Source: Nymphaea colorata (taxonomy: Eukaryota; Streptophyta; Magnoliopsida; Nymphaeales; Nymphaeaceae). From it: a stretch of DNA of 64,000 nt. Position numbers and translations under genes: made by a program. Position 1 is the stretch's first letter, and every line of letters begins with the position of its first letter. The notes under the pieces were generated by a model. The model was given only the letters and a program-made list of their open reading frames with translations, ran no database searches and was not told the DNA's origin. The stretch is taken from NCBI RefSeq assembly GCF_008831285.2, contig NC_045138.2:11050571-11114570 (forward strand), in the 5' to 3' direction. Positions 23,801 through 29,400 of this stretch are shown here, one piece after another.

Positions 23801-26800
23801 ATGGCTTGCCTGAAACTTGCTGCTTTCATTCCCCATCATCATGGTTGTCACAGAAATGGAGATACGTGGAGGAGAGATGAAGTAGGAACGGTAGGATGCG
23901 GCACCGAAGTAGATAGAAGAGGATTTGTCCAATGGCAAAAGAAGCATGTAGTTGGCATTGCCAAATGCAACAGCGGGAACGTAGTGGGTTTGAGGCGAAC
24001 AAGAAATTCCTTCAGATGTGAGGTGGGTGGTGGAGTGGAGGAGACGAAGAAGACGAGGATTCTGATTGCGGGAGGTGGGATTGCTGGCCTGGTTGTCGCA
24101 ATAGCGGCCAAGAAGAAAGGGTTCGATGTGAAGGTGTTCGAGAGAGACATGAGTGCTGTCAGGGGAGAGGGGAGACACAGAGGACCCATTCAGCTGCAGA
24201 GTAACGCTCTAGCTGTCTTGGAATCCATTGATGAGGAGGTGACGGAGAGGATTATGGACGCAAGCTGCATAACCGGAAACAGGATTAACGGCCTCGTAGA
24301 TGGCATCTCCGGTTGCTGGTGATTCTCTTCTCATTGTTTTCTGGACTCTTCTCTGACATACATTTAACCTTCCATTCATGAGTTATTTTGCCATTGGTTA
24401 TGTCGAGAGTTGGAAATCGTTCTACCGCTTAGTCTTCCAGGATTTGGTCCTGGTCTTCGTTGTTGTTCTGTTTCTCTGTTTTAATTTTCCGACTCACAGT
24501 GCTGCTTGAGGTTTACTTTAAGTGGTGCTGATTTGGTATGCAGTTTCATGATTGACCTGATTATTTTGCTCGGTGTTGATGAACTTTACAAAGCAAATTT
24601 GATTTCATTATTCCGTGCTGTTTAAACTTTAAACATATGATAAGTTCTGAAAGGAACATCAGCATTGTCAATTATTTAAATATATTTGTGGACCTCCAAC
24701 CTCTGTATTGAATTTATGCTGGCAAACACGGATCATGTTAAGATGGTGTTGAGGACAAGAGTTTGCAGAACACACTTTTACTCAACAAAAGGTGCATCAG
24801 GTCTAGCCCACAGAGGATTTATTGACGTTGCTTGCAACTTTTCACAGCTATTTTATCTGGTTCTCGGAACAGCATATGGCATATGTTTACTTCTGACAGA
24901 GAAGTTCCCATGCTTGAGTGATTGGAGCGCTTACATGATCTGATCCAGAATTTATATCATCACCTATAGAGAAGGATGACCTTTGTCACCTTACTTGTCA
25001 ATGATCTTGGATAAATGAAAATTTCCTTGTTCTCCAAGTCGTAGAGATCTTCAAACAGTAGGGATGAGTTATTGTGCTTATGTACGTCATTACACCCAAA
25101 TTGGTTTAGTGATTGTAATTACAATGGAACTTAAGTGAAATTACTTGGTTTTGTTTCAACGTTAGCTTACTGAACTTCTCTATATCAATCATTGAGTCTT
25201 ATTTGGGCTCCGTCTGTGGTACTTCAAGGCTCAAGCTATGTTCAAGATGCTCACTTCCAAACTTTTGACTTCATGCCCAAGGGATGAAGCCTCTATGACC
25301 ACCAGATCATGATTGCTTTGAAACTGATACCAGGTAAATGGTGCATCTTAAGCTGTGACCATGTGGGAAATTTGAGTAAATTCTGCTATTGTTGTTGATT
25401 TATGTTGGATATTAGTCTGTCGGAGAGGTGCTGTAGGTTCATACTCTGATTATCACTGACAACATTTATGATCTTGCTTGATTTAGCAGGAGAATAATGT
25501 AAAGAAAAAGCTTTTCTTTTGTCCTTTTCTCTTCTTGTTTTCAATTACATGGCAGATCATGAATGATTCTCAATTAATTCATCTGTCTAGGTATGTTAAG
25601 TATGATCTTTTTACTCCAGCTGCACAAAGAGGGCTTCCAGCAACACGTGTAATAAGTCGGATAGCTCTGCAAGACATTTTAGTGCATGCTGTTGGATCTA
25701 AAAATATTTTTAACAACTGTAACGTTGTGGATTTCAAAGATGAAGCTCGTAAGGTCAGTCCAATATTTTTTTCTCTTTGGGTAAAGTATCTTCTCCTTGG
25801 AGTATAATCAAACTGGATATGGTTCGGCCCCACCTTTTCTGGAAAGAAATTTATCGTACTGAATTGTTCATGATCCATCTTTTTTCACATGAATCAGGTC
25901 GCTGTAATTCTTGAAGATGGGAGAGAATTTGAAGGTGATGTCTTGGTTGGTGCTGATGGAATATGGTCGAAGGTTGGTAGTACAGAAACTGAATAACTTA
26001 ATTACCTTTTAAGAAGTTGATTTTATGTCTACTTCCTTGGTTCAGGTACGTGAAAAGCTATTTGGCTGGCAAGAGGCATCTTATTCAAACTATACATGCT
26101 ATAGTGGAATAGCTGATTTTGTGCCACCAGATATCAATAGTGTTGGGTAACTAGTTTTTGCTTCTAAAAACAGTTATTCTGCTGATAATTTCACCTGACA
26201 TTATCTTCAATTTTAATATATTGTATGATACCTTATCTTTGGATATACTACATGATTATCAAGTAAGGTAAGCTTGTATCTAATTTTCCAAATTTGAAGG
26301 TACCGAGTGTTTCTAGGCCACAAGAAATATTTTGTTTCGTCAGATGTTGGGCATGGAAAGATGCAATGGTATGCATTCCATCATGAGCCAGCAGGAAATA
26401 TAGACCCTCCAGCAGGCATGTTTGTTTACTTAAAGAATGTTTCTACAGTAGAGACGTTGCTTTTTCTTAGTTCTTATTTGAAATTTATCCAACTTTTTGT
26501 TGTTGACATACTTGATGATGCTTGTAGCAAGTAGTTCTTATTGCATTTCTTTGTTAAAGAATTCTGTTATTTATGATCAATGATGTTAGTCCAACAGAAA
26601 TATTGATCACAAATGAATTACAAGATGTGCACCATTTTATCTGTTTAAAATTGATTTTCTTTTGATGCACGGTTGTGAAATAGTTATCTTGCATATGACA
26701 TGAACAAAGAATATCTTCATATAAACTTTATAAATATGTATGTATGGAAGGAATAGCACAGTCAACAACATTATGAGTACAATTGAAACACCTCTCTGCA

Positions 26801-28992
26801 AGGCTTCTAATATATAGCCGTACTACGTCTACCGTCACGTGAATGATGAACCCATCTTGCAGGTGAATTTACTCCAATCTCAAATTGAAGTCCTTTAAAG
26901 CCATTGAATTGCATATCTGTAGGTTGTGTCCTTATGAATTTCTGCTTCACTTGTACGGTCACTTAAAACTTAGTAACTGGCATGAAACCAGTCAAACAGC
27001 TGAACTGAAAAGATAATATACAGGCAAATGATGCTTATGAATTTTGTACAATTTCCTATTACAAATTCTCATTGAAAATGTGAATGTTGGTAAACAAGCT
27101 TGAACATCATCAAATGACAATTCTGGCAAGACATGGAAAATTTTGTATTGTTTCTCCTTGGCTCATGAAAATGCTGATAAGTTTGACATGTTCAAACAGT
27201 GTATATATGGCTGTGTGTTTTGTAGGCAAGAAGAAAAGGATTTTGGAATTATTTGGGAATTGGTGTCATGAAGTAGTGGACCTGCTATTGGCAACGCCAG
27301 AATCTGTGATCCTGCGGAGAGATATTTATGATAGAGACATGATTCATAGTTGGAGCCAAGGTTGTGTGACACTAATAGGTGATGCCGCTCATCCTATGCA
27401 ACCAAATCTGGGCCAAGGTGGCTGCATGGCAATTGAAGTATGTATTTTCTGATGCCACGTTTGAAACCGTGCTTTCATTTGACATCTCTTACTAAGTTCA
27501 TCTGCACCATGCTTGATTTATTTTTTCCAAAATCCATTGATAAATGTTGTAGATTAGCAATCAGGTACTCTGACATGCACCCGTTTTCATTCTTGCAGGA
27601 TAGTTATCAGCTTGTTGTTGAGCTAGAAAAAGCATCTAAGGTTAGATGGAAGGATGGAACAAATGATGAGATAGCTTCTGCACTCCTGAGGTGATATGGA
27701 CACAGAATGCTAAATCTTGTGGTGCTACTGTCCTTGTGAATTTTGATTGCTAACATGATGTTGTTTCCATGCATTCCATGATCAGATATGAGAGGAAAAG
27801 AATATCTCGAGTTAGTGCAATGCATGCAATGTCTCGAATGGCAGCAAGAATGGTCAGCAGCTACCAGCCTTATTTAGCCAGACAACAGAGGCGTGTGCCT
27901 GTATGGTTGATTTCTTTTACTATTATTCTGTGGGGTTTTGGCTGTCTTTCAATCTGTTAGTTACCCTTTATTGGTCTTGTTGCAGTTTATGTCAAAGCCC
28001 TGGATGAGACAACCACTCATTGCAATGGTACAACTTTTCATTTCTTGCGGGATGAAAATGTTGACGTATTGGATTTTGACTGGAAGCAGGTAGGCATCCT
28101 CCAGAATGTGATCCAGTTACTCTTGATTGCTCATCATAAAACTATTTTACCTCAGAAAAGATTTTCAATCTGTAAAAAGCATGCGATGGTCACAACATAA
28201 AATGAAATAACTTCCTCAAAGTGCTATAGTTATTCTGATGTCCTGGAAAACGAACTTTAGATTTTTATTTACCACAGTCGAAAAAATTGGAAACCTTAAT
28301 CTTTTGAGAAAATGTCAAGCACACTAAGCCTAAAAGGTATGAAAGCATCTGAATGTACTGAGCTATTAAAAGTTTCAGCACTCAAGGAATGGTAACCCAA
28401 ATTAACTTTCTATGCTACTAAATTGCCAAAAAGTGAAAGCAGCTTGAGAATCAATGCAACATGCTGGTGCATGCTGATAAATGTATTTAAAAAAGAACTT
28501 GTGTGTTACAGTTTATGTGATGATGAAGGTAAAATCAGGACTTTGATATAGTAATAACATGTCCGGCCAAGGAGCTTGAAGATGATGTTTTGCAACGCGA
28601 TTCTGATCTAATACTGTTTTTGTGCCCTAAAGAATGAGGAAAGCACCCTTTGTCAAAGCACCATAATTTGTTTTCCTCGTTTCTAACATATATTGGGTGA
28701 GTTTGTAAGATTTAGTTTTATCTTATATGATGATTTCAGTGAAAGCACAAAGAAGAGCACATCAGCCATTTGTTTTAGAAACTGTTGAAGTATTAGAGCA
28801 TCTGGAAACATCAATTTTGGATAATCATTTCTCATTGGTTAACTTAAAGCGAGTGCATCAAAAAAGGAATTTGGCATTCATTTGTAGGATTCCCCATTTA
28901 TCGGCTCTGATGTCTAAGCTTTTTTGTTACTTTTTGTGTGTCCCAGTTCTGAGCTTGCAGACCATGTGCGGAAATGTAGACTCTCGGATAAT
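23801..28992 (+). CDS. ZEP: Zeaxanthin-epoxidase-like FAD monooxygenase, ten coding exons, no intact FHA domain
   Basis: Exons: 23801-24318, 25591-25753, 25898-25972, 26046-26146, 26300-26415, 27226-27437, 27599-27690, 27786-27900, 27986-28089, 28947-28992. Their phases agree and give 514 codons in one frame. The start ATG has a good context (CATGGC) and is followed by about 80 residues that fit a plastid transit peptide.

Visible motifs: FAD dinucleotide loop GGGIAG (residues 91-96) with E114, RGEGRHRGPIQLQSNALA, TPAAQRGLPATRVISR, GADGIWSK (245-252), YFVSSDVGHGKMQWYAFH, LRRDIYDRD, and the second FAD motif GDAAHPMQPNLGQGG (376-390). ZEP epoxidises zeaxanthin via antheraxanthin to violaxanthin in plastids, feeding the xanthophyll cycle and abscisic acid synthesis.

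The C-terminal part from exon 8 (residue 465 on) is much more divergent than the core, and normal ZEP (about 660 aa) continues into an FHA domain that is broken here. Intron 5 has a GC donor. The gene may encode a shortened paralogue or be a young pseudogene. If the last intron is not spliced, the frame runs on to a stop at 29092-29094. Confidence 0.85.
26416..27225 (+). other. Intron with GC-AG boundaries in the ZEP-like gene
   Basis: The exon ends CCAGCAG and the intron starts GCATGT. It ends TTTTGTAG before GCAAGAAG. Joining at this point restores a Gly codon across the junction (PAG-KKKRILELFGNWC), which is where ZEP proteins have their GKK segment. No GT donor nearby keeps the frame. GC-AG introns are a known minor class spliced by the ordinary spliceosome. 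Confidence 0.8.
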
Positions 28993-29099: not shown

Positions 29100-29400
29100 A
29101 ACTACTCATGCCATTCTTTATTTGACATGGTGCACAGCGAAGAACATCCTGCAAAATTGCTACGTGAGGAGAGGCAAAGTAAAAGCACATGCTGGGAAAG
29201 TTTCTCAAGGATGCACATTATACATGAAGGGAGTATTTATTTGCTTTGGGAATGTGGTTCATGGATATGTGATTTGAGACAGGCAGTCAGTAAGACAATA
29301 GGTCTTAGACTGTTTGTCCAATGCCATTATGTTCGAAGCGGACATGAGGTCTCAGACTGCCTATTATTGTTGGTTTTGATTGATAGAGAAGAGGGAAATA
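29100..29400 (+). pseudogene. Decayed FHA-domain exon of the ZEP-like gene
   Basis: A ZEP normally ends with an FHA domain containing 'VS-K-HARI-YKDGAFF...HGT-ITD'. Around 29197-29280 the words are still visible but in different frames. One frame gives VSQGCTLYMKGVF and HGYVI, and another gives SRMHIIHEGSIYLL and CGSWICD. This indicates small insertions and deletions. Nothing matching the linker between CRLSD and the FHA domain was found. I infer loss of the domain after gene duplication or during pseudogenisation. Confidence 0.55.

Follow-up and report, generated by a model that had tools for sequence, protein, structure and literature searches.

The locus examined here raises the question of whether a gene that closely resembles zeaxanthin epoxidase (ZEP) but has no FHA domain is a shortened paralogue kept under selection or a gene that lost its 3′ end recently. 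It occupies positions 23801–28992, plus strand, of the window, that is, of the whole 64,000-nucleotide stretch of Nymphaea colorata DNA that was analysed (assembly GCF_008831285.2, contig NC_045138.2, positions 11,050,571 to 11,114,570 of the forward strand). The original prediction described a gene with an intact core for binding flavin adenine dinucleotide (FAD) and a broken FHA domain, and allowed either fate. Judged from its sequence, and with a probability that we put at roughly three in four, the locus is an old ZEP paralogue whose last exon is exon 10 or a short eleventh one, and its predicted product of about 524 amino acids is an FHA-less class A flavoprotein monooxygenase.

A protein search of the genome (G000, 407.8 Mb in 783 contigs) listed 20 matches, nine of them at the window locus, six on contig C8 and five elsewhere; among these listed matches, the five showed at most 42% identity, save one of 50% over 44 amino acids on contig C13. 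The C8 gene (G000:C8, locus L001) is an intact ZEP with 16 exons, 664 amino acids and an FHA domain scoring 45.0 bits. For the comparisons below, the set consisted of the window protein, the C8 ZEP and the ZEP sequences of Arabidopsis, Nicotiana and rice.

The ZEP-like locus is a real gene of ten exons. As predicted, the splice model unites these in a single open frame 514 codons long, and no stop, frameshift or lost splice site was found in them. Eight of the nine introns are of the GT-AG type and intron 5 alone is GC-AG. Exon 1 (23801–24318) encodes an N-terminal extension and the GGGIAG motif (ADP/FAD Rossmann), and ends at a GT donor in a phase like that of exon 1 of the C8 ZEP. The following nine exons equal exons 2–10 of the C8 gene in both length and phase: exon 2 (25591–25753, 163 nt), exon 3 (25898–25972, 75 nt, encoding GADGIWS with the DG motif), exon 4 (26046–26146, 101 nt), exon 5 (26300–26415, 116 nt), exon 6 (27226–27437, 212 nt), exon 7 (27599–27690, 92 nt), exon 8 (27786–27900, 115 nt), exon 9 (27986–28089, 104 nt, encoding a strongly diverged linker) and exon 10 (28947–28992, 46 nt), the last of which ends with the residues CRLSDN and is followed by a good donor, gtaagt. 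Eight of these nine lengths had been set ahead of any comparison with the C8 gene, while exon 8 was afterwards shifted from 109 to 115 nt, its donor being moved from 27894 to the gtatgg donor at 27900, which was chosen to equal the length of C8 exon 8. Since the gene still has its nine introns up to exon 10, each at a ZEP position, a retrocopy was ruled out.

The gene is present in the region where it had been placed, 23801–29400, but its true end is at 28992 or about 29094, not at 29400. The frame probably ends at the TAG at 29092–29094, and this gives the protein of about 524 amino acids. The stop codon closes a candidate terminal exon (29062–29094, plus strand, encoding LASEFYIYTF), which would be joined through an acceptor before 29062, and it is also reached by read-through of intron 10. 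The residues ASE of this candidate exon coincide with the start of exon 11 of the C8 ZEP (ASEHL), and intron 10 would be 69 nt long if this acceptor is used, compared with 86 nt in C8. The match and the intron length are suggestive only, and further acceptors exist downstream, for example, at 29095 and 29138.

Beyond exon 10, the original prediction had recognised the motif words of an FHA domain scattered in two frames. This was not borne out: when the 155-amino-acid tail of the C8 ZEP was aligned with tolerance of frameshifts to 28993–30200, the score of 31 was reached by 75 of 200 dinucleotide shuffles, and against 28993–36000 a score of 38 was reached by 28 of 200. The positive control, the intact gene, reached a tail alignment score of 193, while its shuffles scored 42 at most. 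In an earlier shuffle test of the supposed FHA remnant, its score was reached by 26 of 60 and 22 of 60 shuffles at two frameshift penalties. The 146-codon open reading frame with FHA-like words downstream of the gene (29028–29468, plus strand) has no Pfam match and was rejected as a remnant of the domain because its alignment does not score above shuffled DNA. No FHA domain was found by Pfam in the window protein (512-amino-acid model), and none of the 69 FHA matches listed for the genome (150 of 164 candidates scored) falls in the window, although exon 14 of the C8 gene is among them at 33.7 bits. When four ZEP tails were searched by tblastn against 124 kb surrounding the gene, the best of the matches listed had an E value of 0.076 and lay at 42463–42576. 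Considering that tail alignment, FHA list and tblastn were all null, the domain is gone as far as these tests reach rather than broken; nothing recognisable as FHA was found, and the linker that should precede it is missing too, as had been predicted. No remnant of exons 11–16 above chance was detected within 7 kb downstream, which means that the truncation itself is not recent, and this disfavours the second of the two fates allowed by the original prediction. In a search ignoring simple repeats and very common words, the segment 28993–31500 had no match in the rest of the genome; being single copy by this search, it led us to reject a transposon as the agent that cut the gene.

The predicted retention of the FAD motifs and of GADG proved right. 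The core of class A monooxygenases is marked by the GxGxxG, DG and GD motifs, and the window protein retains all three, as GGGIAG, GADG and, in exon 6 at 27378–27419, GDAAHPMQPNLGQG. The Pfam model FAD_binding_3 matched the window protein, in the earlier 512-amino-acid model, with 58.8 bits and the C8 ZEP with 58.2 bits. The GD motif reads GDAAHPMQPN, whereas the four compared ZEPs have GDS[IV]HAMQPN; three of the four chains of the PDB aligned to the window protein read gda(a/c)hp or gdaah at this place, and GDAAHP is either an ancestral state retained or a convergence. The core of 429 residues matches two bacterial class A enzymes, tropone 2-monooxygenase (8rqh, residues 2–361) and 6-hydroxynicotinate 3-monooxygenase (5eow, residues 2–360). 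They share the common core, but with only 95 and 83 bits, and by their names they are aromatic-ring monooxygenases with other substrates. The best of these alignments stops at residue 361, inside exon 8; consequently, the part common to the solved enzymes ends in this exon, with strong divergence beyond it. There, the linker GVGLGPLSFLT..RIPHPGRVGGR of the four compared ZEPs is replaced in the window protein by ARQQRRVPFMSKPWMRQPLIAMVQ of equal length. As a separate observation on this domain, the top listed FAD_binding_3 match of the genome, at G000:C439:9535–10083 (58.5 bits), contains three internal stops (one TAG and two TAA).

Divergence between the window gene and the C8 ZEP is old. At four-fold sites, 37 of 116 are identical (26% expected at saturation) and the corrected distance, K4, comes to 1.85 (1.24 at the lower bootstrap bound). 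Amino-acid identity to the C8 ZEP is nevertheless 70% in the core of exons 1–7 and 33% in exons 8–10, with no stop or indel. Near-saturated synonymous sites combined with retained amino acids and an undamaged frame indicate an old paralogue that purifying selection has preserved through most of its history. Pairwise maximum-likelihood estimates of omega, the ratio of nonsynonymous to synonymous divergence, were 0.054 over 429 codons (omega = 1 rejected, 2dlnL 286) and 0.20 over exons 8–10 (omega = 1 rejected, 2dlnL 22). In exons 9–10, agreement is 0.52 at first and 0.56 at second codon positions, compared with 0.27 expected, and 0.30 at third positions, compared with 0.24; the observed sum of this bias was reached by none of 5000 permutations. 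Homology of this part was also seen with no exon model, since C8 exons 8–10 aligned to 27701–29000 scored 80, and the maximum of 200 shuffles was 43. On these sequence comparisons, purifying selection is strong in the FAD core and weak, though still discernible, in exons 8–10. Together with the exon lengths and phases, the core identity at synonymous near-saturation and the codon bias of exons 9–10 support the first fate allowed by the original prediction, a shortened FHA-less ZEP paralogue kept under selection.

The change is not spread evenly along the protein. The other four proteins agree with one another at 288 core positions. Of these, the window copy is changed at 68, whereas private changes number 6 in the C8 ZEP and 9, 14 and 8 in the ZEPs of Arabidopsis, Nicotiana and rice. 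The changed positions amount to 36 of 233 in exons 1–7 and 32 of 55 in exons 8–10 (Fisher p = 4e-10), which confirms the predicted divergence of the C-terminal third from exon 8 onward. In trees of the five proteins, the branch of the window copy in exons 8–10 is 1.55 long compared with 0.20 for the C8 ZEP. As these trees are unrooted, the window branch may include an older stem. The tree of exons 8–10 groups the window copy with rice, which we take as a sign of noise. A bacterial outgroup for rooting was sought in one scan, and no relative was found among the 62 stretches matched. When the window branch was split off roughly by hand with outgroups, by combining these branch lengths with the pairwise omega and four-fold estimates, its omega was about 0.2–0.3 in exons 1–7, an estimate and not a fit.

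Several observations weigh against the view of an old paralogue maintained by selection. The same hand split gave about 0.6–0.9 for exons 8–10, which is near relaxed, and in exons 1–7 the branch of the window copy is about five times that of the C8 ZEP (0.53 vs 0.10). Pairwise omega averages over both lineages and all time, so the C8 ZEP accounts for part of its low value and a recent change would not show, and synonymous divergence is saturated, with an infinite value fitted in two of five separate exon groups. The eight codons of exon 8 that follow ‘YL’ are not conserved, as 6 of their 16 first and second positions agree, a value reached in 771 of 5000 permutations, and exons 9–10 aligned alone scored 36, which was reached by 2 of 200 shuffles. 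The donor of intron 5 at 26416–26417 is GC (CAG followed by gcatgt), whereas the C8 ZEP has GT there. Finally, by composition only, the first 80 residues of the window protein contain 6 serines and threonines, 7 acidic (D/E) and 18 basic (K/R/H) residues, compared with 16, 5 and 12 in the first 78 residues of the C8 ZEP; so few serines and threonines make plastid import uncertain.

Is the enzyme then a ZEP? Exons 2–10 have the lengths and phases of the C8 gene, the FAD_binding_3 core bears the GxGxxG, GADG and GD motifs, and identity to plant ZEP cores (ABA1/ZEP) in exons 1–7 is 66–70%. In contrast, the N-terminus is poor in serine and threonine, the GD motif has GDAAHP, the branch is longer and the linker after ‘YL’ is not conserved. 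The ZEP gene is reported to have 16 exons in grape, Arabidopsis, poplar and rice (PMC3484060), of which the window gene has exons 1–10, while exons 11–16 and the FHA domain were not found. With the FAD motifs kept but the FHA domain, linker and 16-exon structure absent, the product is better described as a ZEP-like monooxygenase than as a canonical ZEP. We infer that the gene is transcribed and translated and that its product would bind FAD and use NADPH (reduced nicotinamide adenine dinucleotide phosphate) and O2 to mono-oxygenate a substrate, like ZEPs and related enzymes. Lacking the FHA domain, it should lose whatever phosphoprotein recognition this domain confers on ZEP, and with the C-terminal linker also replaced, its docking or choice of substrate is probably altered.

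That the protein is nonetheless a second true zeaxanthin epoxidase working without FHA, as in diatoms, is possible, though we consider it the less probable outcome; it is compatible with an old FHA-less paralogue and differs from it on the substrate alone. The retained catalytic motifs speak for it. So do the diatom enzymes: ZEP1–3 of Phaeodactylum are described as ZEP-type flavoprotein monooxygenases without FHA (PMC2483416), and ZEP3 is, according to a report of its knockout and complementation, the candidate diatoxanthin epoxidase (PMC11629738). As the diatom ZEPs work without it, FHA seems dispensable for epoxidation of the zeaxanthin type. However, they are reported to be ancient out-paralogues with other C-terminal sequences (PMC2483416), unlike the window gene with its plant exon structure and its close similarity to plant ZEP cores. 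Moreover, the four plant ZEPs compared hardly vary in the linker that the window protein has lost, and this loss and the 68 private substitutions argue for a changed function. With FHA absent and the linker replaced, a specialised ZEP-like enzyme is more likely than a second housekeeping epoxidase.

A more doubtful extension is that the gene is a survivor of an ancient FHA-less ZEP subfamily which dates back to the angiosperm crown or earlier and seems to have disappeared from, for example, Arabidopsis and rice, and that it took on a new substrate or the role of a constitutively unregulated epoxidase. No FHA-less ZEP paralogue of a water lily or other flowering plant was described in the literature searched, in which few subscription journals were covered. 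A 2008 paper states that higher plants keep one ZEP copy only (PMC2483416), while papers on grape (PMC5484692) and chickpea name two or three. In grape, VvZEP2 (VIT_13s0156g00350, 475 amino acids) and VvZEP3 (479 amino acids) are likewise short plant genes annotated as ZEP, next to VvZEP1 of 658 amino acids (PMC5484692); they were compared by annotation and length alone and may belong to another family of FAD monooxygenases.

It is unlikely that the pair arose in the Nymphaealean whole-genome duplication, a proposal that concerns the origin alone and not the function. Single genes scatter around the K_S peak of a whole-genome duplication, which counts in its favour, and it is compatible with the six residues private to the C8 ZEP and with the four found in only that protein and the window copy. 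The published K_S peak lies at about 0.9 (PMC7015852), but K4 is above it even at its lower bound. When 124 kb of contig C1, which carries the window, was compared with 90 kb of C8, two short matching stretches, out of order, were found beyond the ZEP exons, and no other collinear match was present within about 42 kb on either side of the C8 gene. Two neighbouring open reading frames on C1 have their best paralogues on C9 and C4, and that of a C8 neighbour is on C10, its matches on C1 lying 24 Mb away with 38–80% identity over short stretches. Synteny of this kind was thus absent in a test of about 42 kb on each side and three neighbouring frames.

Somewhat less probable still is a recently dead gene, that is, a paralogue which worked for most of its history and lost its function so recently that no stops or frameshifts have accumulated. 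The lost FHA domain, the near-relaxed exons 8–10 with 32 of 55 ZEP-conserved positions changed, the GC donor of intron 5 and the N-terminus poor in serine and threonine are all consistent with such a death, but the 514 codons carry no disabling change and the splice sites are GT-AG and once GC-AG. With neutral drift simulated at 0.02, 0.05 and 0.1 substitutions per site (600 runs each), 33%, 7.5% and 1.2% of the runs, respectively, left the 514 codons free of stops; hence the gene can have died only recently. It may have died within the last few per cent of the divergence, whereas a longer period without function is unlikely. Finally, it is highly improbable that the gene is a full-length ZEP in which intron 10 has taken up a large insertion and exons 11–16 lie far beyond it. 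Plant introns can be long and the intron 10 donor is good, but the listed tblastn matches over 124 kb, the FHA list, which contains C8 exon 14 but no place in the window, and the lack of another genome match for 28993–31500 all stand against it.

Other features were noted around the gene. A dispersed repeat at 21000–22224, whose end lies some 1.6 kb before the ATG of the ZEP-like gene, occurs in at least 39 other places with 74–84% identity over its main part (74 matches; of 1273 candidates, 40 were scored, this repeat among them). A tandem array of about 18 copies of a 32-bp unit with 66% match lies at 36614–37190. On the minus strand, 60133–61200 holds a 356-codon open frame with no Pfam match and one other match in the genome, at C9:14305201–14306109 with 45% identity, which looks like an exon of a conserved gene.

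The importance of the FHA domain for plant ZEP is still to be clarified according to a 2025 review (PMC12570779). If the water lily gene were dead or unexpressed, it would represent ordinary gene decay after duplication. If, as we think probable, it is a long-FHA-less plant paralogue with its catalytic core under selection, it would be a natural experiment on what the FHA domain does, and a candidate for an altered enzyme of the xanthophyll cycle or of carotenoid modification.

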